From the NCBI GenBank assembly GCA_948443805.1, contig CAOJUB010000015.1, positions 1-42,000 on the forward strand: a stretch of DNA of 42,000 nucleotides, read 5' to 3'. Position numbers and translations under genes: made by a program. Shown here piece by piece: positions 14,211 through 27,752 of this stretch. The notes under the pieces were generated by a model. It did not search any database, was not told the DNA's origin, and saw nothing but the letters and a program-made list of their open reading frames with translations. The stretch's first letter is position 1. Each line of letters begins with the position of its first letter. Source of the stretch: an uncultured Clostridia bacterium. Lineage in GTDB: Bacteria; Bacillota; Clostridia; Oscillospirales; UBA644.

Positions 14211-15038
14211 TCAGGAAGCCACAACCCCGCAAACCGAAAAAATTTCCCGGATATTGGTCATCATCCGGTCGGACAGGATCAGTTCCGCGCAGGGAATTCC
14301 CAGGCCGCCCATGATCCAGCTGCGAAGCGTACTGAATTTCAGCCGGTCGTCCGTAAAAATCGGAATCCCGAAATATTTCGAGATAATCTTGCCGCTTTTT
14401 GCGGAATTTTTCACAAAATTCTCGCGGTAGGTGCAAGAAAGGCCGTCCTGCTCCCCGCGGGAAAAAATAAAAACAAAATCGAACGGAATACGAAGCAGAA
14501 AACGGGAAAGCGCGGCGCTTTCCCGTTCACTTTCGGGATATTCGCCGCAGTAGCCGCGGGCGGAGGGGCCGACAGACGCGGTTATTTTTTTTGCTTTTTC
14601 CCAATCGCCGTCGTGATTCAACGAAAGATCGACCCCCCGGACATTGCTGCGCCAACCGGAAAAATCGCCGGAACAATTCATTTTTTTCATTCGCTCTTCA
14701 AACGGATTATTTGCTGTAAATATCCCATTTACAATATCCACACCGTCGGGATTAGGTCGGGGAATCAGATATAAAGTATGATAAGAAAAAAATTCTTTTA
14801 TATTAAAAAAAGGATTTTTTCCGTTCCCTGCCGCAAGCCCGCGCCCCCACGCCGTCATCGCATCGCCGATTTCCCAGCAGAGCGAAGAATAATCGCAGAG
14901 AAAAAGAAGATTTTTCGGACCGTTTCCCAGTTTCGCGCAAAAAATCTCCTGACCGAGCCATGAATCACCAATTTTCTGACAAAAAATCCCCTCGGAATCA
15001 AAACCGGCTTTGATTTCCTTATTTTTTATTGTTTCCAT
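14211..15038 (-). CDS. M14 carboxypeptidase-fold protein lacking the zinc ligands
   Basis: A 275-residue protein with the M14 (zinc carboxypeptidase) scaffold of gamma-D-glutamyl-diamino acid peptidases. The recognisable parts are YLIPRPNPDGVDIVNGIF, then GWRSNVRGVDLSLNHDGDW, which aligns with the substrate-binding Arg segment and the usual GVDLN(R/L)N, and a late GIPCAEL that carries the position of the catalytic Glu. The zinc site appears lost. Where HxxE belongs the protein reads YSSLCWE (50-56), and where the third ligand (HxQGEE-like) belongs it reads FSRGEQDG. It is therefore probably not a peptidase; binding a peptide or cell-wall fragment is a guess. The start has GGCGGG 6 nt upstream. 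No signal peptide. It is divergent from the Nudix/LexA-like pair across a shared palindrome. Confidence 0.7.
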   Translation of the reverse strand: METIKNKEIKAGFDSEGIFCQKIGDSWLGQEIFCAKLGNGPKNLLFLCDYSSLCWEIGDAMTAWGRGLAAGNGKNPFFNIKEFFSYHTLYLIPRPNPDGVDIVNGIFTANNPFEERMKKMNCSGDFSGWRSNVRGVDLSLNHDGDWEKAKKITASVGPSARGYCGEYPESERESAALSRFLLRIPFDFVFIFSRGEQDGLSCTYRENFVKNSAKSGKIISKYFGIPIFTDDRLKFSTLRSWIMGGLGIPCAELILSDRMMTNIREIFSVCGVVAS

Positions 15039-15060: not shown

Positions 15061-15096
15061 TATCATATTTACAAATCGGTGTAAATATGATATAAT
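15061..15096 (+). promoter_or_regulatory. Nudix/LexA-like promoter overlaid by a perfect 13-bp inverted repeat
   Basis: TTTACA (15068-15073), 17 bp, TATAAT (15091-15096) form a strong promoter. A perfect 13-bp inverted repeat (15061-15073 with 15080-15092, half-site TATCATATTTACA) with a 6-nt centre covers the -35, the spacer and the first bases of the -10. On the other strand the same palindrome overlaps where a promoter for the divergent M14-like gene would lie (TTTACA at 15080-15085). A dimeric repressor bound here should block both. The LexA-like protein encoded downstream is the natural candidate; that link is inference. Confidence 0.8.
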
Positions 15097-15222: not shown

Positions 15223-15762
15223 ATGCGACCGAATACAATCGAATCGAAAGAAATCTACAAAGGAAAAATTTTAGATTTATATCAGGACACCATTTTGCTT
15301 GAAAACGGTTCGGAAGCAAAGCGGGAAGTCGTCCGGCACAAAAAAGCAGCCTGTATTTTCGCCTATGACGACGATTTCGCCTATCTGGCGGAACAGTACC
15401 GACACCCGATAGGAAAACCGGTTCTTGAGATCGCGGCAGGGATTTGCGAGGAACATGAAAATCCCGTTTCAACGGCGAAAAGAGAGTTGAAAGAGGAACT
15501 GAACGCCCTCTGCGGAGAACCGGTTTTTCTGGGTGAATACTATTCCTCGCCCGGATTCTGCGATGAAATTATTTATATGTATGCAGCCAAAGTGACGGGG
15601 TTTGAAAAGGGGACGCAGGACGAAGACGAATTTGTAACAACAAGAAAAATTCCGCTTGAAACCTTCTACCGTATGATCGACACCGGAGAAATCAAAGACG
15701 GAAAAACCATTGCCGCAGTCTGTAAATTCCGGTGCCGGCAGAAAACGGAGCAAACCCGATGA
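15223..15762 (+). CDS. Nudix hydrolase, ADP-ribose pyrophosphatase type
   Basis: A 179-residue Nudix enzyme of the ADP-ribose pyrophosphatase (NudF-like) group, which splits ADP-ribose to AMP and ribose 5-phosphate. The Nudix box is readable at residues about 73-95: G, five residues, E, then NPVSTAK and RELKEEL. The usual Gly near the end of the box is Asn, a minor departure. The N-terminal ESKEIYKGKILDLYQDTILLENG and the YRHPIGKPVLEIAAG strand before the box are typical of this group; a later EYYSSPGFCDEIIYMY completes the fold. The ribosome binding site AAAGGA is about 11 nt from the ATG, which is slightly long. The stop overlaps the start of the LexA-like gene (ATGA), so they are coupled. 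Confidence 0.92.
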   Translation: MRPNTIESKEIYKGKILDLYQDTILLENGSEAKREVVRHKKAACIFAYDDDFAYLAEQYRHPIGKPVLEIAAGICEEHENPVSTAKRELKEELNALCGEPVFLGEYYSSPGFCDEIIYMYAAKVTGFEKGTQDEDEFVTTRKIPLETFYRMIDTGEIKDGKTIAAVCKFRCRQKTEQTR

Positions 15763-16331
15763 AAAACAACACGCGCCGGACAACCCGGCAAAAAATTTTT
15801 CTTTACATAAAAAAAGAAATTGATAAAAACGGCTATCTTCCGTCATTACGGCAAATCGGAAAAGCGGTAGGATTAGCCTCCCCCTCATCGGTCAAGCGCC
15901 ATGTCGATATTCTGGAAAGCGAAGGCTGGATTCCCGCCAAGCGCACGGATTCTGCAGAAAAAGCATACACCGAAACGCCGGTCTATACTGAAAAGCAACT
16001 TTCGGAACACCGTTTCCCCGCTGCGGTAAAGGAACGGCTGTATCTTCCCTGCCGGCAGCCGAACGACGGCCTGTTTGCCATACGGGTGCCAGACGACGCG
16101 CTTTCGGGAATCGGTATACGGAAAAACGATTTTGTCGTTGCGGAAAAGAAAAACGATATCGCAAGCGGCGATCCGGGCGTGTTTTTGGTTCACGGGCGCG
16201 TGTATATCCGAACCTTCCGGCTGTCGAATGAGGGATTTGTCCTTACAGCGGAAAACGAAGCGTTTGAAGAGATTGACTGCAAAGAATTTACACTGCTGGG
16301 GAAAATCATAGCCGTTCAGCGTTTTTTCTGA
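15759..16331 (+). CDS. LexA-like repressor without the autocleavage dyad
   Basis: A 190-residue protein with LexA architecture. Residues 8-60 form the winged helix (RQKIFLYIKKEIDKNGYLPS, then LRQIGKAVGLASPSSVKRHV), and residues about 94-190 the S24-like C-terminal domain. In LexA, Ser of the GDSM motif and a later Lys cut an Ala-Gly bond. Here the Ser position is Ala114 in RVPDDALSGIGI, the Lys position is Arg151 in VYIRTF, and no Ala-Gly site is evident in the linker before YLPCRQP. It should bind DNA but not self-cleave in response to RecA, so it is probably a constitutive or ligand-controlled repressor rather than the SOS regulator. The ATG at 15759 has CGGAG 8 nt upstream and overlaps the Nudix stop. 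The palindrome at 15061-15092 is its likely own operator. Confidence 0.75.
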   Translation: MKNNTRRTTRQKIFLYIKKEIDKNGYLPSLRQIGKAVGLASPSSVKRHVDILESEGWIPAKRTDSAEKAYTETPVYTEKQLSEHRFPAAVKERLYLPCRQPNDGLFAIRVPDDALSGIGIRKNDFVVAEKKNDIASGDPGVFLVHGRVYIRTFRLSNEGFVLTAENEAFEEIDCKEFTLLGKIIAVQRFF

Positions 16332-16528: not shown

Positions 16529-17026
16529 ATGCCTGCACCGAAAGTGTGTAAAATTCCTTTTTCGGGAACGCCCGAACAGGAACAGAAACTCATGAAGGTC
16601 ATTGAAGACCTCAAAGAAACAAAAGGAGCTTTGATGCCCGTTATGCAGAAAGCTCAGGAAATCTACGGTTATCTTCCGATCGAAGTTCAGCGGATGATCG
16701 CCGACGGCCTTAACGTTCCGCTGGAAGAAGTGTACGGCGTTGCAACGTTTTACGCGCAGTTCGCCCTGAATCCGAAAGGGAAATACAAAATCGGCGTATG
16801 TTTGGGAACGGCCTGCTATGTTAAGGGCGCGCAGGAAGTGTTTGATAAAGTCTGCGACGTTCTTCATATCACGGGCGGAGACGTGACCGAAGACGGAAAA
16901 TTCTCGCTTGACGCAACGCGCTGTATCGGCTGCTGCGGCCTGGCGCCCGTCATGACGGTCAACGACGATGTTTACGGAAAAATCACGGCGGATCAGGTAG
17001 AAGAAATTCTGAAAAAATACAACTAA
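16529..17026 (+). CDS. hydC: HydC / NuoE-like [2Fe-2S] subunit of the trimeric [FeFe]-hydrogenase
   Basis: A 165-residue thioredoxin-like [2Fe-2S] protein homologous to the 24-kDa (NuoE) subunit of complex I, here the smallest subunit of a HydABC hydrogenase. The helical N-terminal part GALMPVMQKAQEIYGYLP and the four cluster ligands in VCLGTACYVKG and RCIGCCGLAPV are all present, with the VYGVATFYAQF block before them. In electron-confurcating/bifurcating HydABC enzymes this subunit passes electrons within the NADH-oxidising arm. The ribosome binding site (AAAGGAAA) precedes the ATG. It is the first gene of the locus, and seven small regulatory-type genes separate it from HydB and HydA. Confidence 0.93.
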   Translation: MPAPKVCKIPFSGTPEQEQKLMKVIEDLKETKGALMPVMQKAQEIYGYLPIEVQRMIADGLNVPLEEVYGVATFYAQFALNPKGKYKIGVCLGTACYVKGAQEVFDKVCDVLHITGGDVTEDGKFSLDATRCIGCCGLAPVMTVNDDVYGKITADQVEEILKKYN

Positions 17027-17076
17027 AACCGCCCCCGCTTATTTATGCCGCGCGCAAGCGCAGAACGGAGATTTGT

Positions 17077-17427
17077 ATGAAAATCAAAGAGATTGTTTCC
17101 ATCCTGGACGCAGACATCCTCTGCGGCGAGGAACATCTGGAAAACGAAGTCCATTCCGCCTGCGGAGCAGATATGATGAGCGACGTGCTTGCTTTCGTCA
17201 AGGAACAGGCGGTTCTTCTGACCGGTCTGATCAATCCCCAGGTTGTCCGAACGGCGGAAATGATGGATATGCGCTGTATTGTGTTTGTCCGCGGAAAAAC
17301 GCCGCCGCAGGAAGTTATCGAATTGGCCAAGGAAACCGGCCTTGTTCTGCTCGCCTCAAAAGAAAGAATGTATCCGGCCTGCGGCAAACTCTACGCCACC
17401 GGTCTTTCAGGCGGAGGGACAGTCTGA
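17077..17427 (+). CDS. DRTGG-domain protein (first copy)
   Basis: A 116-residue protein consisting of one DRTGG domain, a small Rossmann-like unit first noted beside CBS domains and in phosphotransacetylase- and BioD-like proteins; it probably binds a small ligand or partner. Visible features are MKIKEIVSILDADILCGEE, the HSACGADMMSDVLAF segment at the DRTGG position, and ETGLVLLASKERMYPACGKLYATG. The biochemical role of free-standing DRTGG proteins is not established. The gene follows HydC by 50 bp with CGGAG 7 nt before the ATG and overlaps the next gene (TGATG). Stand-alone DRTGG genes next to HATPase and PHP genes recur in hydrogenase loci of anaerobes, so a regulatory function is inferred. 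Confidence 0.8.
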   Translation: MKIKEIVSILDADILCGEEHLENEVHSACGADMMSDVLAFVKEQAVLLTGLINPQVVRTAEMMDMRCIVFVRGKTPPQEVIELAKETGLVLLASKERMYPACGKLYATGLSGGGTV

Positions 17428-17852
17428 TGAGCGAGCCGGTAACCTTTCATTTTGACGTTGAAGGGGATAACTTCGCCTCTGCGGGCGAAGCCTCGGTCAG
17501 CATCAAAAAAATACTCCGGCAGCTGAATATCGACCCCGAAACCATCCGGAAAGTATCCATTGCGATGTACGAAGGCGAAATCAACATGGTCATCCATGCA
17601 AACGGCGGTTCCGCCGACGTTCTCATCTTCCCGGACAAAATCAGAATCATTCTGGAAGACACCGGGCCGGGTATCGCGGATATTTCTCTGGCTATGCAGG
17701 AAGGGTGGTCCACCGCAAAGGAAAATGTGCGGAATCTCGGTTTCGGAGCGGGTATGGGGCTGCCGAATATGAAAAAGTATACAGATAAAATGGATATAGA
17801 ATCCGAATTAGGTAAAGGAACAAAAGTCACTATGGAAGTCTTTATTCAGTAA
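17427..17852 (+). CDS. HATPase-domain anti-sigma-factor-like protein (RsbW/SpoIIAB type)
   Basis: A 141-residue GHKL ATP-binding protein related to serine-kinase anti-sigma factors. The N box is IAMYEGEINMVIHA (residues about 47-60), G1 is ILEDTGPGIADIS, and G2 is LGFGAGMGLPNMKKY, followed by SELGKGTKVTM. All ATP-binding elements are intact. Relatives phosphorylate an anti-sigma antagonist or sequester a sigma factor, but no STAS partner is encoded nearby, so the partner here may be a neighbouring DRTGG or [2Fe-2S] protein. The ATG at 17427 overlaps the preceding stop, with GGAGG 9 nt upstream, so it is translated with the first DRTGG gene. Confidence 0.85.
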   Translation: MSEPVTFHFDVEGDNFASAGEASVSIKKILRQLNIDPETIRKVSIAMYEGEINMVIHANGGSADVLIFPDKIRIILEDTGPGIADISLAMQEGWSTAKENVRNLGFGAGMGLPNMKKYTDKMDIESELGKGTKVTMEVFIQ

Positions 17853-17882
17853 AAACTTCCGGAAAAGACCAAGGAGGTTCTT

Positions 17883-19184
17883 ATGCCTCAGTACAAACAC
17901 TCAGTATCTCTGACCGAAGATAAATGCAACGGCTGCACAAACTGCTTAAAACGGTGTCCGACCGAAGCGATCCGGATACGGAACGGCCATGCGGTAATCA
18001 AAACGGAGCGGTGTATCGACTGCGGGGAATGTATCCGGCGCTGTCCGTACAATGCAAAAAAGGCGACCTATGATCCTTTGGAATCCATTCAGGAATACCG
18101 TTGGAAAATCGCGCTTCCAGCACCGGCACTTTTCGGTCAGTTCGATCATCTCAACGATTTGGATTACGTTCTCAACGGCCTGATCGAGTTCGGCTTTGAC
18201 GATGTTTTTGAAGTTGCCAGAGGGGCGGAACTGGTTTCCGAATATACCCGGCTGTATCTGCGAAACAAAGCTTCCGGCGATCTGGTGATCAGTTCCGCCT
18301 GCCCTGCTGTCACACGGCTGATCAGCGTGCGGTTTCCTTCTCTCTGCAAAAACCTGCTGCCGATCCTGCCTCCGGTAGAACTGGCGGCAAGAGTGGCAAG
18401 AAAAGAAGCAAAGCGGAAGAACCCTGAACTCCGGGATGAAGATATCGGCGTTTTTTTCATTTCTCCCTGCCCGGCAAAGGTCAGCTATGTAAAAAATCCA
18501 ATCGGCGTTCAAAAAAGCGCAGTGGATAAAGTCCTTTCTATAAGCGATATCTATTTTAAACTGATTTCCATCATGTCGAAGATTAAAAATCCGTGGCCGC
18601 TTTCTTCAACCGGGCTGATCGGTATCGGCTGGGCGGGAACCGGCGGCGAAGCTTCGGCGCTGTTCAACGACAAATACCTGGCTGCGGACGGAATAGAAAA
18701 TGTCATTCAGGTTCTGGACGCTATTGAAAACGGAAACATTTCCGGGTTGGAATTTGTAGAATTAAACGCCTGCAACGGCGGCTGCGTCGGCGGAACAATG
18801 AATGTGGAAAATCCGTACATATCCAAAGCACGGCTGCAAAACCTGAAACGTTTTTTGCCGGTATCCATGAACCATGTACCGCTGAATATTGGCGGCGAAC
18901 AAAACAAAGAAATTCCGAAAGAAACAATGTGGGAAACCGGCGTTGAATATTCTCCGGTACTGCAGCTGGACGACGACACGATACAGGCCATGCGGAAAAT
19001 GGGAGAAATACAAAAATTGACCAAATCCTTTCCGAATCTGGACTGCGGCTCCTGCGGCGCCCCCTCCTGCCGTGCGCTGGCGGAAGATATTGTCCGGGGA
19101 GAAGCCGATGAAGACAGCTGCATGATGAAATGGAAAGAAAAAATGCAAAGCCTGCGGGAGGGAAAAAACAGCAATGACGGTTAA
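17883..19184 (+). CDS. Sensory-type [FeFe]-hydrogenase-like protein (H-cluster domain with added Fe-S domains)
   Basis: A 433-residue protein. The N-terminus has two [4Fe-4S] motifs (CNGCTNCLKRCP, CIDCGECIRRCP), the centre is an [FeFe]-hydrogenase large-subunit domain, and the C-terminus ends in a four-Cys cluster domain (DCGSCGAPSCRALAEDI...DSC). The H-cluster loops are L1 SSACPAV (137-143), L2 SPCPAK (194-199) and L3 NACNGGC (295-301), so four ligand cysteines are kept. The proton-transfer Cys of TSCCP is Ala139, as in HydS-type sensory hydrogenases, and the GGG after L3 is degraded. It lacks the small-subunit-like tail. I read it as a low-turnover H2 or redox sensor acting with the adjacent HATPase, DRTGG and PHP proteins. 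The start has AGGAGG upstream. It overlaps the next gene. Confidence 0.85.
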   Translation: MPQYKHSVSLTEDKCNGCTNCLKRCPTEAIRIRNGHAVIKTERCIDCGECIRRCPYNAKKATYDPLESIQEYRWKIALPAPALFGQFDHLNDLDYVLNGLIEFGFDDVFEVARGAELVSEYTRLYLRNKASGDLVISSACPAVTRLISVRFPSLCKNLLPILPPVELAARVARKEAKRKNPELRDEDIGVFFISPCPAKVSYVKNPIGVQKSAVDKVLSISDIYFKLISIMSKIKNPWPLSSTGLIGIGWAGTGGEASALFNDKYLAADGIENVIQVLDAIENGNISGLEFVELNACNGGCVGGTMNVENPYISKARLQNLKRFLPVSMNHVPLNIGGEQNKEIPKETMWETGVEYSPVLQLDDDTIQAMRKMGEIQKLTKSFPNLDCGSCGAPSCRALAEDIVRGEADEDSCMMKWKEKMQSLREGKNSNDG

Positions 19185-19512
19185 ACAATTGGCGGAAAAG
19201 CTTTCACTTCAGGCTCTTTCCCTGCCGGAGCCGGACAGAGAAATCACCGGAGGCTATGCAGGCGATCTGTTAAGCTGGGTGATGGGAAGAGCACAGAGCG
19301 GCGACGCATGGCTCACCATTATGACAAATCTGAATATCATTGCTGTCGCTTCGCTTGCCGACACCGCCTGCATTATTATCGCGGAAAATTCAGAAACGAC
19401 GGAAGAACTGGTTCAAACAGCGGCTCAAAAAGGAATCAATCTCCTGAAAAGCGAACAGCCGGTATTTTCCCTCGCCGCGCAGATCAGCGCGTTTCTTGCC
19501 GAACAAGAATGA
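19174..19512 (+). CDS. DRTGG-domain protein (second copy)
   Basis: A 112-residue single DRTGG domain. The name-giving motif is better kept than in the first copy: DREITGGYAGDLLSWVMGRAQSGDAWLTI (about residues 22-50). It is followed by LNIIAVASLADTACIII and a C-terminal LLKSEQPVFSLAAQI. The start lies inside the end of the sensory hydrogenase gene (11-bp overlap), with a GGGAGGG site about 11 nt upstream. The stop overlaps the PHP start (ATGA). Having two divergent DRTGG paralogues in one operon suggests they may pair with each other or serve the two HATPase proteins separately; this is inference. Confidence 0.85.
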   Translation: MTVKQLAEKLSLQALSLPEPDREITGGYAGDLLSWVMGRAQSGDAWLTIMTNLNIIAVASLADTACIIIAENSETTEELVQTAAQKGINLLKSEQPVFSLAAQISAFLAEQE

Positions 19513-20264
19513 ACCGGTATTATTACGATCTGCACATTCATTCCTGTCTCTCGCCCTGCGGAAACGACGATATGACGCCGAACAACATCGCCGGCATGGC
19601 AATGCTCAAAGGCCTGAACATCGTTGCGCTGACCGATCATAATTCCTGCAAAAACTGCCCGGCTTTTTTCAAGGCCTGTGAAAATTTCGGCCTGATACCG
19701 ATTGCCGGCATGGAATTAACAACAGCCGAAGATATTCATATTGTCTGTCTGTTTTATACGCTGGAACAGGCCATGGCTTTCGACCGGGAAATCGAAAAAC
19801 ACCGGCAGAAAATACCTAACCGGCCGGAAATCTTTGGAAATCAGCAGATTTTGGACGAAGAAGACCGTCTGACCGGTCAGGAAGAAACGCTATTGATAAA
19901 CGCGACCGACCTTGACATGGCGGCAGCGACAGAAACCGTGCGGAAATTCGGCGGAATCGTCTATCCCGCGCATATCGACCGGCCGGCAAACGGAATGGTA
20001 GAAACGCTTGGAACAATTCCTAAAGAATATGATTTTACCTGCGTTGAATTTTACGACAGAACCGTCACGCAGACCTATATTTCCCGCTTTGGGCTGGAAA
20101 CCATGAAAATCGTCTGCAGTTCCGATGCGCATTATCTAGAAAACATCAGCGAAGCGGAAAATTATTTTACTTTTGACGACGATCCGTACTGCGGAAAGGC
20201 CTCTGCAAAAATCCTGCTCGATTATCTCGGCTCTCCCGGGAGAAAGGAACCGACGCCGCGATGA
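19509..20264 (+). CDS. PHP-domain metal-dependent phosphoesterase
   Basis: A 251-residue PHP domain protein. The metal-ligand motifs are visible: DLHIHSCLSPCG at residues 6-17, ALTDHNSCKNC near 42, GMELTTAEDIHIV near 68, YPAHIDRP near 155, and CSSDAHYLENI near 200. These match the Asp/His-rich trinuclear metal site of TrpH-like nucleotidases and phosphoesterases. Substrate is unknown; known relatives hydrolyse nucleoside 3',5'-bisphosphates or short oligonucleotides. The ATG at 19509 overlaps the preceding DRTGG stop and no strong ribosome binding site is present, so translation is probably coupled. PHP genes of this type accompany HydABC regulatory genes in other anaerobes, which suggests a role in signalling or cofactor repair. 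Confidence 0.88.
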   Translation: MNRYYYDLHIHSCLSPCGNDDMTPNNIAGMAMLKGLNIVALTDHNSCKNCPAFFKACENFGLIPIAGMELTTAEDIHIVCLFYTLEQAMAFDREIEKHRQKIPNRPEIFGNQQILDEEDRLTGQEETLLINATDLDMAAATETVRKFGGIVYPAHIDRPANGMVETLGTIPKEYDFTCVEFYDRTVTQTYISRFGLETMKIVCSSDAHYLENISEAENYFTFDDDPYCGKASAKILLDYLGSPGRKEPTPR

Positions 20265-20809
20265 AAGAATTGTCTCTGAATATCCTGGATATAGCCAAAA
20301 ACTCGGTAACGGCAGGCGCAAAACATATCGGCATACTGCTTCACGAAGAAGCTGACGGCTGGCTGACGCTGACGATTCAGGACGACGGAAAGGGAATGGA
20401 TGAAGAAACGCTCCGCCGGGTAACCGACCCGTTTTATACTACAAGAACAACCCGGAAAGTCGGAATGGGGATTCCCCTGCTGACGCTGGCCGCGGAACAA
20501 ACCGGCGGCACGGTAACGATCCGTTCGCGGCCGAAAGAAACGCATCCGGACGATCACGGAACCGAAGTTCTCGCAACCTTTCAAACCCGACATCTTGATT
20601 TCACCCCGCTGGGAAACGTTACCGACTCGCTTTGCGTTTTGATTCAGGGCAATCCGGAAATTGATTTTACCTTTATCCATACAGCGCCGACTTTCTCGGT
20701 CGCCTTTTCTACCGAGGAAATCCGGCAGATACTCGGAAACGAAGTATCGCTTGCAGAATACGAAGTAATCGCTTGGATTCGCGGTTATATAGAACAACAA
20801 TACGAATAA
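20261..20809 (+). CDS. HATPase-domain protein, histidine-kinase-like without receiver or sensor
   Basis: A 182-residue GHKL ATPase. The N box is LNILDIAKNSVTAGAKHI (residues about 6-23), G1 IQDDGKGMDEETL, F box DPFYTTRTT, and G2 KVGMGIPLLTLAAEQTGG, with GTEVLATF after it. It resembles the catalytic domain of sensor histidine kinases but has no dimerisation/phospho-acceptor helix or sensor domain. A C-terminal 75-residue extension (LTDSL-like strand through IAWIRGYIEQQYE) is not recognised. The start overlaps the PHP stop (ATGA). It is the second HATPase of the operon. It probably signals through protein interaction with the DRTGG or [2Fe-2S] partners; that is inference. Confidence 0.85.
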   Translation: MKELSLNILDIAKNSVTAGAKHIGILLHEEADGWLTLTIQDDGKGMDEETLRRVTDPFYTTRTTRKVGMGIPLLTLAAEQTGGTVTIRSRPKETHPDDHGTEVLATFQTRHLDFTPLGNVTDSLCVLIQGNPEIDFTFIHTAPTFSVAFSTEEIRQILGNEVSLAEYEVIAWIRGYIEQQYE

Positions 20810-20890
20810 AACTTCTTCCGGAAAACGGAACGGAGCTTTTTCATATATCAGGTGCATGAATTTTTAAAATATTTTGGAGGTGCGCTCTCA

Positions 20891-21271
20891 ATGAAGAGTC
20901 TGGCAGAACTTGAAGCTATCAGAGAGAAAATGAAGGGAAAAGTCGCAATCAGAGACACGGCGGACAATACCGTTCGGGTTGTTGTCGGCATGGCGACCTG
21001 CGGCATTGCAGCAGGCGCAAGACCGGTGCTGAACGCCTTGGCGGAAGCGGTTGACAAACAGCAGCTTTCCGACCATGTTACCGTCACGCAGACAGGCTGT
21101 ATCGGTATATGCCAGTTTGAGCCGGTTGTTGAAGTTTTCGAACAGGGCAAGGAAAAGGTGACCTATGTCAAAATGTCGCCGGAAAAAGCCCGGAAAATCG
21201 TTGAAGAACATATCAAAGGCGGCAAAGTCGTCACGGAATATACCATCGGCGCTTACAAAGACGCCAAATAA
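20891..21271 (+). CDS. Thioredoxin-like [2Fe-2S] ferredoxin-domain protein
   Basis: A 126-residue protein with a helical N-terminus followed by a thioredoxin-like [2Fe-2S] fold. The ligands are in VVGMATCGIAAGAR and TQTGCIGICQFEP (a CxxxC pair); the spacing resembles the NuoE C-terminal domain and the first domain of HydB. It is commonly annotated as (2Fe-2S) ferredoxin-domain or NADH dehydrogenase-like protein in HydABC loci, including that of Thermotoga as I recall it. It may shuttle electrons between the sensory hydrogenase and the enzyme, or be an accessory subunit. The start at 20891 has GGAGG 10 nt upstream; an earlier in-frame ATG at 20852 lies before that site and is less likely. Confidence 0.85.
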   Translation: MKSLAELEAIREKMKGKVAIRDTADNTVRVVVGMATCGIAAGARPVLNALAEAVDKQQLSDHVTVTQTGCIGICQFEPVVEVFEQGKEKVTYVKMSPEKARKIVEEHIKGGKVVTEYTIGAYKDAK

Positions 21272-21284
21272 GGAGGAAAGAGTA

Positions 21285-23093
21285 ATGATTCGTTCTCACG
21301 TGCTGATTTGCGGAGGTACAGGCTGTACTTCCTCCGGAAGCAACACTTTAAGAAATGTGCTGGAAGAACAGCTGAAAGCCAAAGGTCTTGACGAAGAAGT
21401 AAAAGTTGTAAAGACCGGATGTTTCGGCCTTTGCGCTCTCGGTCCGATTATGATCGTCTATCCCGAGGGAACATTCTACAGCATGGTAAAAGAAGAAGAT
21501 ATTCCTGAAATTGTGGAAGAGCATCTTCTGAAAGGCCGTCCGGTAGACCGTTTGATCTATAAAGACACCGGAGACGCCGAAGAAAAAGCCGAAGTGGATA
21601 AACTCATTTCGCTCAACGACACGGCTTTCTATAAAAAGCAGCACCGTGTCGCGCTCCGCAACTGCGGCGTTATCAATCCTGAAAACATTGACGAATATAT
21701 TGCCATGGACGGATATAAAGCGCTGGGAAAAGTGCTGACAGAAATGACGCCGGACGACGTCATCGACGCGGTTAAGAAATCCGGACTGCGCGGCAGAGGC
21801 GGCGGCGGATTTTCCACCGGTCTGAAATGGCAGCTGGCAAAAAACATTGTTCCTAACGCCGATCAGAAATACGTTTGCTGCAACGCCGACGAAGGCGACC
21901 CCGGTGCGTTTATGGACCGGTCGGTTCTGGAAGGCGACCCGCATACGGTCATTGAAGCAATGGCTATCGCCGGTTATGCAATCGGCGCCAATCAGGGATA
22001 TGTCTATATCCGCGCAGAATATCCGATTGCCGTACACCGTTTGCAGATCGCTATTGACCAGGCAAGAGAATACGGTCTTCTAGGCAAAGATATTTTCGGC
22101 ACAGGTTTTGATTTTGACATGGACATCCGTCTTGGCGCAGGCGCGTTTGTCTGCGGAGAAGAAACGGCGCTGATGACCTCCATAGAAGGCCGCCGCGGCG
22201 AACCCAGACCCCGTCCCCCCTTCCCTGCCGAAAAAGGTCTATTTGCCAAACCCACCCTGCTGAACAATGTGGAAACCTATGCGAACATCACCCAGATCAT
22301 CCTGAACGGACCCGAATGGTTCGCGGCCATGGGCACCGAAAAGAGCAAAGGGACCAAGGTTTTTGCGCTCGGCGGAAAAATTACGCATACCGGTTTGGTT
22401 GAAATTCCGATGGGAACCACCCTGCGTACCGTTATCGAAGATATCGGCGGCGGCATTCCCAACGGCAAAAAATTTAAAGCCGCACAGACCGGCGGCCCTT
22501 CGGGCGGATGCATTCCTGCGGAACATATGGATATTCCGATCGACTATGACAACCTGATCTCCATTGGTTCCATGATGGGTTCGGGCGGTCTGATCGTTAT
22601 GGACGAAGACAACTGTATGGTTGACATTGCCAAATTCTTTCTGGAATTTACCGTTGACGAATCCTGCGGTAAATGTACCCCCTGCCGGATCGGAAACAAA
22701 AGACTGCTGGAGCTGCTCAACAAAATTACCGAAGGCAAAGGAACCATGGAAGACCTCGACAAGATGGAAGAACTTTGCTATTACATTAAAAACAACTCCC
22801 TCTGCGGACTCGGCCAGACAGCGCCGAACCCCGTACTGTCGACGCTGCGGTTTTTCCGTGATGAATATATCGCCCATATTCAGGACAAAACCTGTCCTGC
22901 AGGCGTATGCAAAAAGCTTGTGAAGTTTGAAATCACCGATGCCTGCAAGGGCTGTACCAAGTGCGCAAGAAACTGCCCGGTTGACGCGATTTCCGGCGCA
23001 ATCCGTGAAAAACACGTAATCAATCAGGACAAGTGTATCAAATGCGGCGCTTGTATCGACAATTGCTCGTTCAAAGCAATTATTAAGAAATAG
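21285..23093 (+). CDS. hydB: HydB / NuoF-like NADH- and FMN-binding hydrogenase subunit
   Basis: A 602-residue subunit that oxidises or reduces NAD(H) in the HydABC hydrogenase. Domains in order: an N-terminal thioredoxin-like [2Fe-2S] domain (CGGTGC and TGCFGLCALGP), the NuoF core with the FMN/NADH glycine-rich GLRGRGGGGFSTGLKW and ADEGDPGAFMDR, the SLBB region, a [4Fe-4S] motif in SCGKCTPCRIGNKRL, and a C-terminal two-cluster ferredoxin domain (CKGCTKCARNCP, CIKCGACIDNCS). The extra C-terminal clusters distinguish HydB from complex I NuoF and are used in flavin-based electron bifurcation with ferredoxin. The start at 21285 has AGGAGG 8 nt upstream. The gene is 13 bp after the [2Fe-2S] gene and 14 bp before HydA. 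Confidence 0.96.
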   Translation: MIRSHVLICGGTGCTSSGSNTLRNVLEEQLKAKGLDEEVKVVKTGCFGLCALGPIMIVYPEGTFYSMVKEEDIPEIVEEHLLKGRPVDRLIYKDTGDAEEKAEVDKLISLNDTAFYKKQHRVALRNCGVINPENIDEYIAMDGYKALGKVLTEMTPDDVIDAVKKSGLRGRGGGGFSTGLKWQLAKNIVPNADQKYVCCNADEGDPGAFMDRSVLEGDPHTVIEAMAIAGYAIGANQGYVYIRAEYPIAVHRLQIAIDQAREYGLLGKDIFGTGFDFDMDIRLGAGAFVCGEETALMTSIEGRRGEPRPRPPFPAEKGLFAKPTLLNNVETYANITQIILNGPEWFAAMGTEKSKGTKVFALGGKITHTGLVEIPMGTTLRTVIEDIGGGIPNGKKFKAAQTGGPSGGCIPAEHMDIPIDYDNLISIGSMMGSGGLIVMDEDNCMVDIAKFFLEFTVDESCGKCTPCRIGNKRLLELLNKITEGKGTMEDLDKMEELCYYIKNNSLCGLGQTAPNPVLSTLRFFRDEYIAHIQDKTCPAGVCKKLVKFEITDACKGCTKCARNCPVDAISGAIREKHVINQDKCIKCGACIDNCSFKAIIKK

Positions 23094-23107
23094 GAGGAAG
23101 AACCGAG

Positions 23108-24850
23108 ATGGCTGATATCAATCTGAAAATCAACGGACTGCCGGTAACCGTACCTGCGGGCACGACCATTCTGGAAGCGGCAAAATCCGTTGGCATAAAA
23201 ATTCCGACCCTCTGCTTTCTCAAAGACATTAACGAGATCGGCGCCTGCCGGATCTGCGTTGTTGAGGTGAAGGGAGCCAGAAGCCTTGCCGCTTCCTGCG
23301 TCTACCCCGTAGCGGAAGGCATGGAGGTATTTACCAATACCCCCGCCGTAAGAAAATCCAGAAAAATGACTTTGGAACTGCTGCTTTCGGTTCACGACAG
23401 AAAATGTCTGTCCTGCTCCAGAAGCCAGAACTGCGAATTGCAGGCTCTCGCGCTGGAATACGGCATTGAAGACGCCGGAAGATTTGACGGCGTAAAACCG
23501 GAATACACCAAAGACGATTCCAATGCCTATCTTGTCAGAGACAACAATAAATGTATCCTCTGCCGCCGTTGTGTTGCGGTTTGCAGCAAAAATCAGGGCG
23601 CAGGCGTTATCGGCGCGAACGAAAGAGGTTTTGACACCAACATCGGCTCTGCGTTTGATATGGAACTCAAGGACGTTTCCTGCATCGGCTGCGGACAGTG
23701 CGTTGCCGTCTGCCCGACCGGCGCGCTTACCGAAAAGGACGATACCGATCTGGTATGGGATGCCATTGCCGATCCGGAAAAACATGTCGTCATCGCTCCG
23801 GCACCCGCCGTCCGGGTTACCCTCGGCGAATGTTTTGACATGCCGATCGGAACCAATGTGGAAGGTAAAATGGTCGCTGCGATGAGACGGCTTGGCGTTG
23901 ACGCCGTTATGGATGTGGACGTTGCCGCCGATATCACGATCATGGAAGAAGGAACCGAATTTATCAACCGGGTTCAGAACAACGGAACGCTTCCTCTCAT
24001 CACCTCATGTTCTCCCGGATGGATCAAATTCTGCGAACACTATTACCCAGAATTTATCCCGAATCTTTCCAGCTGCAAATCGCCGCAGGGAATGTACGGC
24101 GCGCTGATGAAATCCTATTATGCGGAAAAACAGGGAATCGACCCGAAAAATATCTTTGTCGTTGGCGTTATGCCCTGTACGGCGAAGAAATTCGAAAGAA
24201 CCCGCGAAGGGTATTCGGTAGACGGTCTGCCGGATATCGACGCCGCCATCACAACCCGGGAACTGGCGAAAATGATCCGGAACGCCGGAATCAATTTCAC
24301 CGCGCTGCCTGACGAGGATTTCGATCCGCTGTTCGGCGAAGCAACCGGCGCCGGCCACATCTTCGGCGCAACCGGCGGCGTAATGGAAGCCGCGCTCCGC
24401 ACCGTGGTTGAAGTGCTGGAAAAGAAAGAGCTGGAAAAACTGGAATTTACCGAAGTCCGGGGTATGCAGGGCGTCAAGGAAGCGTCTTACAACGTTGCCG
24501 GCATGGAGGTAAAACTCGCGGTTGTTTCCGGAACGGCCAACGCAGCAAAACTGCTAGAGGAAATCAAAGCCGGAAAAGCAAACTATCACTTTATTGAAGT
24601 AATGGCCTGCCCCGGCGGCTGTATCAACGGAGGCGGTCAGCCGATCCACGATGCTTATACAAGAGCAAATACCGATATTAAGGGACTGCGCGCCGCCGCG
24701 CTTTACACCGCGGACGAAAAGGAAACATTGCGCAAATCTCACAACAGTCCGATTGTCAAGGAAATTTACGAAAATTATCTGGGAGAATGCGGCGGACATA
24801 AAGCACACCATCTGCTTCACACCTCCTATGTTCCCAGAAAGAAAAACTAA
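23108..24850 (+). CDS. hydA: HydA, catalytic [FeFe]-hydrogenase subunit
   Basis: A 580-residue catalytic subunit that makes or consumes H2. Domains in order: plant-type [2Fe-2S] domain (C-x10-C-x2-C around GACRICVVEVKG), a His/Cys-ligated cluster (HDRKCLSCSRSQNC), two [4Fe-4S] clusters (CILCRRCVAVCS, CIGCGQCVAVCP), then the H domain with VMPCTAKKFE and VMACPGGCINGGGQP, ending in a small-subunit-like tail (YLGECGGHKAHHLLHTSY). The L1 loop reads TSCSPGW at 299-305 rather than the textbook TSCCPxW. That variant may be normal in multimeric HydA proteins, but I could not confirm this. A strong ribosome binding site (AGGAGGAA) precedes the start. A terminator follows at 24858. No maturase (HydE, HydF, HydG) is in the window, so those must be elsewhere. 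Confidence 0.97.
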   Translation: MADINLKINGLPVTVPAGTTILEAAKSVGIKIPTLCFLKDINEIGACRICVVEVKGARSLAASCVYPVAEGMEVFTNTPAVRKSRKMTLELLLSVHDRKCLSCSRSQNCELQALALEYGIEDAGRFDGVKPEYTKDDSNAYLVRDNNKCILCRRCVAVCSKNQGAGVIGANERGFDTNIGSAFDMELKDVSCIGCGQCVAVCPTGALTEKDDTDLVWDAIADPEKHVVIAPAPAVRVTLGECFDMPIGTNVEGKMVAAMRRLGVDAVMDVDVAADITIMEEGTEFINRVQNNGTLPLITSCSPGWIKFCEHYYPEFIPNLSSCKSPQGMYGALMKSYYAEKQGIDPKNIFVVGVMPCTAKKFERTREGYSVDGLPDIDAAITTRELAKMIRNAGINFTALPDEDFDPLFGEATGAGHIFGATGGVMEAALRTVVEVLEKKELEKLEFTEVRGMQGVKEASYNVAGMEVKLAVVSGTANAAKLLEEIKAGKANYHFIEVMACPGGCINGGGQPIHDAYTRANTDIKGLRAAALYTADEKETLRKSHNSPIVKEIYENYLGECGGHKAHHLLHTSYVPRKKN

Positions 24851-26630: not shown

Positions 26631-26645
26631 GGAATGGAGACAGGT

Positions 26646-27752
26646 ATGAACGAAAGCAAGAAAAAAGCATTGGATATGGCAATTTCCCAAATTGAAAAAG
26701 ATTTTGGCAAAGGTTCCGTTATGACGCTGGGAGAAAACGAAACCATGAATATTGACCATATTTCAACCGGTTCCTTTTCTCTGGACATTGCTCTTGGCAT
26801 AGGCGGCGTTCCGAAGGGACGAATCGTAGAAATCTACGGGCCTGAAAGCTCCGGTAAAACCACGGTGGCTCTCCATATCGTTGCCGAAGCGCAAAAAACA
26901 GGCGGCGTTGCCGCATTTATCGATGCAGAACATGCGCTTGACCCGATCTATGCACAGAATCTCGGCGTAGATATTGATTCACTGCTGGTCTCTCAGCCGG
27001 ACAACGGAGAGCAGGCGCTTGAAATTACAGAAACCCTTGTCCGTTCCGGCGCTATCGATGTGATCGTTATCGACTCGGTAGCCGCTCTTGTCCCCCGTCA
27101 GGAAATCGAAGGAGAAATGGGAGACAGCCATGTCGGCCTTCACGCCCGTCTGATGTCTCAGGCGCTTCGAAAACTGGCCGGAATCATCAACCGAACCTCC
27201 TGCGTTGCGATCTTTATCAATCAGCTCCGAGAAAAAGTCGGGCAGGCTTACGGAAACCCAGAAACCACAACCGGCGGCCGGGCGCTGAAATTCTATGCTT
27301 CGGTTCGTCTCGACGTCAGAAGGATTGAAACACTGAAAGTCGGAACGGAAGCCGTTGGTTCCAGAACAAAAGTCAAGGTTGTTAAAAATAAAGTGGCTCC
27401 CCCCTTTAAGGACGCAGAATTTGATATCATGTACGGCAAAGGCATTTCCAAAGAAGGCGAGGTTCTCGACAGCGCCGTAAAACTGGAAATTGTCCAAAAA
27501 TCCGGCGGTTGGTTCTCCTACGGCGGCGAACGGCTCGGTCAGGGACGGGACAACGTAAAAAAACTGATAAAAAGCAAACCGGAACTGCGGCAGGAACTGG
27601 AAGAAAAAATCAAGGAAGCGCTCAGCACAACCGCTTCAGCAAAAGAGAAATCCAGTGAAGTCACAGCGGCAGTTAAGGCAGGAAAAAAAGGAAAATCAAC
27701 AAAAAAGGCAGATATCAATGTCAACGCCGAAGACTTTGACACCGAAGACTGA
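26646..27752 (+). CDS. recA: RecA recombinase
   Basis: A 368-residue RecA, the strand-exchange ATPase of homologous recombination and co-protease of the SOS response. The Walker A motif GPESSGKTT, the [22 protein letters not shown] segment (Walker B and loop 1), [10 protein letters not shown], and loop 2 with [14 protein letters not shown] are all intact. The C-terminal region is Lys-rich and ends acidic (NAEDFDTED). I chose the ATG at 26646 because GGAG lies 6 nt upstream; an in-frame ATG at 26634 would place this site inside the gene. The stop codon overlaps recX (TGATG). It has its own promoter and two leader hairpins. It heads the long co-directional run to 35676. Confidence 0.98.

Follow-up and report, generated by a model that had tools for sequence, protein, structure and literature searches.

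The closest precedent for a LexA protein without self-cleavage is that of Synechocystis sp. PCC 6803, in which the Ala-Gly pair is replaced by Gly-Gly and the catalytic Ser by Asp. This protein is thought not to cleave itself and to act outside the SOS response, and it regulates the hydrogenase operon (PMC3091678, PMC7567884). A LexA-type DNA-binding domain without self-cleavage was also described in gp6 of the phage GIL01, a truncated, phage-encoded activator that contains the DNA-binding domain only (PMC6182141). FddR of Francisella has kept the catalytic dyad and is damage-responsive; it is an S24 repressor in a genome without canonical LexA (PMC13148647). Our literature search on LexA in Oscillospirales found nothing.

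In our study, a stretch of 42,000 nucleotides from an uncultured Clostridia bacterium of the order Oscillospirales (contig CAOJUB010000015.1, positions 1 to 42,000), hereafter the window, was found to contain a LexA orthologue that was altered in place; the source is a gut bacterium. LexA is defined by self-cleavage, and here all three catalytic features are gone while the gene still stands in its operon. It adds to Synechocystis another case, which arose independently and in which the loss is more complete. Both proteins are orthologues without Ala-Gly and Ser, and the window gene also adjoins a hydrogenase cluster. The two belong to different phyla and lost the residues independently, and the window LexA has lost the Lys too. 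The hydrogenase neighbourhood may mean nothing, because canonical LexAs share it. We lean, with moderate confidence, towards reading the window LexA as a non-proteolytic, autoregulated repressor of the Nudix-LexA operon that is cut off from the SOS response.

The LexA gene and its locus

The open reading frame codes for 190 amino acids plus a stop codon. Its ATG at 15759 overlaps the stop codon of the Nudix gene as ATGA, and its codon-position GC resembles that of the adjoining genes. In Pfam, LexA_DNA_bind (E 1.5e-13) and Peptidase_S24 (E 5.8e-12) were both over the cut-off and the predicted structure had the LexA fold, which bears out the original prediction of a LexA layout with a winged helix. 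With the NCBIfam equivalog TIGR00498 lexA the frame scored 80.3 bits, under the cut-off of 110.95 bits. The features of the locus are listed in Table 1.

Table 1. Features of the Nudix-LexA locus and its surroundings, in positions of the window.
Feature	Position	Strand	Support
Divergent M14 zinc carboxypeptidase-like gene; conserved neighbourhood; also faces the candidate operator	14211..15038	-	
Perfect 13-bp inverted repeat TATCATATTTACA-AATCGG-TGTAAATATGATA, candidate operator	15061..15092	.	0/4000 randomisations
Sigma-70-type promoter of the Nudix-LexA operon (TTTACA, 17 bp, TATAAT)	15068..15096	+	
Nudix hydrolase with a nearly complete Nudix box; Pro 15 residues after the box	15223..15762	+	
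LexA orthologue without scissile pair, Ser and Lys	15759..16331	+	Pfam/NCBIfam, 66-sequence alignment, AF2 model, PDB fold match
Winged-helix DNA-binding domain, residues 1-61, recognition helix 42-54	15759..15941	+	
Scissile Ala-Gly position, here Leu81-Ser82	15999..16004	+	A and G in 64/64 relatives
Catalytic Ser position, here Ala114 (GCG)	16098..16100	+	S in 64/64 relatives
Catalytic Lys position, here Arg151 (CGA)	16209..16211	+	K in 64/64 relatives
NuoE-like gene (2Fe-2S, thioredoxin fold) that opens the [FeFe]-hydrogenase (group A6) cluster after LexA	16529..17026	+	

The gene had been taken for a LexA paralogue, with a canonical LexA possibly encoded elsewhere, and neither expectation held. 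The gene order divergent M14, Nudix, LexA, NuoE-like is common to the genomes G003 (genus g4), G002 (g3), G017 and G019 (both g7); the last two were compared gene by gene and the remaining g7 genomes for the adjacency of Nudix and LexA. At this locus, the LexA of G002 and of five g7 genomes was canonical. The genome of the window has a size of 1.81 Mb and is 98.85% complete. No second protein in it scored as LexA over its length, and the only other proteins of LexA-like fold were an XRE-S24 protein and a signal peptidase. Because the gene has the same neighbours as the canonical LexAs of the sister genera and no other LexA is found in the genome, it is the LexA orthologue itself and not a paralogue. 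The canonical LexAs of g7 and G002 resemble it in gene position, Nudix partner and domain order, but they keep Ala-Gly, Ser and Lys, and their identity to it is only about 30%. The hydrogenase cluster spans 16529-24850 of the window, and its first genes come after LexA in the sister genera as well.

Cleavage residues and fold

To set the catalytic columns, the protein was aligned with E. coli LexA and with 64 LexA orthologues of Oscillospirales from many families; these 64, the window LexA and the LexA of G003 make up the alignment of 66 sequences. Ala-Gly, Ser and Lys were absent from two of the 66, the window protein and that of G003, which belong to the same family. The alignment agreed with the predicted Ala114 and Arg151 at the dyad positions, without a gap at either, and placed Leu-Ser where an Ala-Gly pair had been noted as missing. 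The LexA of G003 contained Thr-Asn, Gln and Ala at these positions. A sequencing error, against which the substitutions had to be checked, is unlikely, because the changes affect three catalytic features separately and all three are also missing from a second genus. As judged from this alignment, the catalytic residues of the window LexA are lost, and with the scissile pair, Ser and Lys all replaced, the protein is unable to self-cleave by any known LexA chemistry, as had been proposed. It is extremely improbable that it still cleaves itself through a displaced dyad or another scissile bond. A serine, Ser116, does lie two residues past the lost Ser position, but an Arg at the position of the general base is not expected to do the job of Lys, the alignment is ungapped at both sites and the scissile pair is gone as well.

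The AF2 model of the window LexA had a mean pLDDT of 88.5, and its best structure matches in the PDB were LexA. When the model was superposed on E. coli LexA S119A, the C-terminal domain matched with a Z of 16.0 and an rmsd of 2.7 A. The model of the G003 protein, whose reading frame is open, was LexA-like at lower confidence (pLDDT 80.3). Agreement of the winged helix with the 64-sequence consensus was 0.45 (minimum of working LexAs 0.36, median 0.58), and that of the C-terminal domain was 0.31, where the other LexAs reached at least 0.57. By alignment and model, the window LexA has a normal winged helix and a C-terminal domain that is predicted to be folded but has diverged. The recognition helix contained Lys46, against His in 52 of the 64 relatives; therefore, the operator may have changed. 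The two cleavage-dead LexAs, of the window and of G003, shared only 28% identity, and much of the protein may therefore be weakly constrained.

History within the family

In the RecA tree, in which several forks are poorly supported, the genera g3 and g7 with canonical LexA were split from g1, g4, g5, g2 and g6. Cleavage-dead LexA was found in g1, the genus of the window, and in g4, and the two are separated by long RecA branches. Genus g5 contained a related Nudix without an adjoining LexA, which in G005 and G011 stood beside a DMT transporter gene; in the window, this gene is found two genes upstream. No LexA over the cut-off was found in the well-assembled g5 genomes. On one reading, self-cleavage was lost early in the group of g1, g4, g5, g2 and g6 and the gene was later lost in several lines; alternatively, g1 and g4 may have lost self-cleavage in two independent events.

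The same pattern could be that of a relic on its way to loss: SOS control would have been abandoned in the clade, LexA would be gone from g5, g2 and g6, and the protein would have little function left in g1 and g4. We consider this rather unlikely. The g5 locus with Nudix alone next to the DMT gene, the g5 genomes without LexA and the strongly diverged C-terminal domain are consistent with it. Against it, the frames are open at full length in two genera with long RecA branches between them, the DNA-binding domain lies inside the normal range of LexAs, the start codon of LexA is tightly coupled to the stop of the Nudix gene, and the fold is predicted at high confidence. The open frames, together with the same loss by different residues in two deep genera, argue against simple decay. 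As the sister genera carry an intact LexA in this position, the two cleavage-dead genera offer a clean before-and-after comparison for the change from a one-shot protease switch to an ordinary repressor; counting Synechocystis, such a conversion would have taken place independently at least twice.

Nudix pairing

Coupling of the repressor to the Nudix hydrolase, with the substrate or product of the enzyme as its signal, was part of the original prediction. The operon is real; the signal found no support, since the pairing also occurs with canonical LexA. The same Nudix adjoins a fully canonical LexA in the sister genera, and one other family of Oscillospirales shows this arrangement as well. 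When 30 loci of the sampled order were inspected for the pair, it was found in family f1 and in one case in f21. Of 80 Nudix loci in named genomes, a single one had an adjacent LexA, which was canonical, and this speaks against a recurrence of Nudix with cleavage-dead LexA. When named genomes were scanned at the DNA level with the window protein as the sole query, no relative was found. Because canonical LexAs have the same Nudix neighbour, the pairing is older than the catalytic loss, and it therefore gives no evidence for the Nudix substrate or product as a signal.

The Pro located 15 residues after the Nudix box is what we take to be the signature of ADP-ribose pyrophosphatases. A ligand-responsive repressor, with the Nudix substrate or product, for example ADP-ribose, as its effector, would suit this signature and the retention of the overlapping two-gene operon in both cleavage-dead genera. 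We regard it as distinctly unlikely, as the canonical LexAs beside the same Nudix in the sister genera and in the other family need no such signal.

Relationship to the SOS response

The gene encoding RecA was found at 26634-27752, and RecX and a Y-family polymerase are also encoded in the genome. As the original prediction had stated, inspection by eye revealed nothing resembling a LexA box upstream of recA; this is a weak point, because the sister genera with canonical LexA are also without a standard box there. A role outside the SOS response, which had also been suggested, is rated as probable. The case is also a warning that an SOS response does not follow from an automatic annotation as LexA.

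The motif GAAC-N4-GTTTG was frequent in the lexA promoters of the order and was not found in genus g7. In g7, the motif TTTTCGAACAA was present at recA and at the lexA operon, but also upstream of unrelated genes, and it was not seen at the gene of the Y-family polymerase. As neither motif could be established as the LexA box of g7, we infer, and do not observe, the loss of the SOS regulon. A conserved CGAACAAATT block was present upstream of recA in g7 (L054-L056, L059, L060), and a near copy of it was found at the Nudix-lexA promoter of G016 (L013, upstream of Nudix). The block is possibly an unusual LexA box.

It is very unlikely that the window LexA still runs a damage regulon from which it is released by host proteases, by displacement through RecA or by trans cleavage through another S24 protein. 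It is the sole LexA of the genome, and RecA, RecX and the Y-family polymerase are present, as such a regulon would lead one to expect; but visual inspection of recA revealed no site of the LexA-box kind, the His of the recognition helix has changed to Lys, and no Ala-Gly bond is available for cleavage in trans.

An S24 regulator of the XRE type that keeps Ser, Lys and Ala-Gly was found on another contig of the same genome (G000 contig C25, L038:5520-6146). Its gene directly follows ligA and the gene for a UvrD/HelD-like helicase, which are read in the same direction. This protein is a candidate replacement damage-responsive repressor. The genome resembles that of Francisella in having another S24 repressor and no canonical LexA, and the counterpart of FddR here would be the XRE-S24 protein of contig C25, not the window LexA.

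Promoter, candidate operator and proposed regulation

The Nudix-LexA promoter matched 11 of the 12 consensus bases and contained TG ahead of the second hexamer. The inverted repeat upstream of the operon covers the TTTACA of the -35 element and the spacer. None of the Markov-chain randomisations, which were made on the 184-bp intergenic region, gave such a repeat (Table 1). Three other perfect repeats (13, 13 and 15 bp) were found within the window; length alone is therefore no proof, and the position carries more weight. The core of the repeat was matched perfectly nowhere else in the genome, and at two or fewer mismatches it had 8 genome sites, mostly intragenic, against 3 for the reversed control. 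In the comparison of one g1 genome with G003 of g4, the repeat was not present in the G003 promoter, and therefore it is not callable as conserved. It is plausible as the candidate operator of the Nudix-LexA promoter, and it could also belong to another regulator. The recognition helix of GIL01 gp6 contains Lys38, and its palindrome has CACA/TGTG arms (PMC6182141), by which no correspondence to Lys46 of the window LexA is implied.

As an autorepressor, the window LexA would bind DNA, probably as a dimer, and would repress its own Nudix-LexA operon through the inverted repeat that overlaps the promoter; repression would perhaps extend to the divergent M14 peptidase gene. RecA is unable to release the protein through induced self-cleavage, because neither the dyad nor the scissile bond is left. 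The repressor might set a steady level of the operon, including the ADP-ribose-pyrophosphatase-like Nudix, or might answer a non-proteolytic signal. Repressor activity, use of this operator and the signal are what we infer. A wider scheme can be drawn for the clade as a whole, and we hold it to be unlikely: SOS control would have been taken from LexA, the protein would have been kept as a stable autorepressor that governs ADP-ribose hydrolysis from an operator of a new type, TTTACA-N6-TGTAAA, and damage sensing would have moved to the S24 repressor by ligA and the helicase. In G003, tandem copies of ATCGAACAATAAAAA were found upstream of the Nudix-LexA operon (L035:2219-2250), at the place where the window has the inverted repeat.
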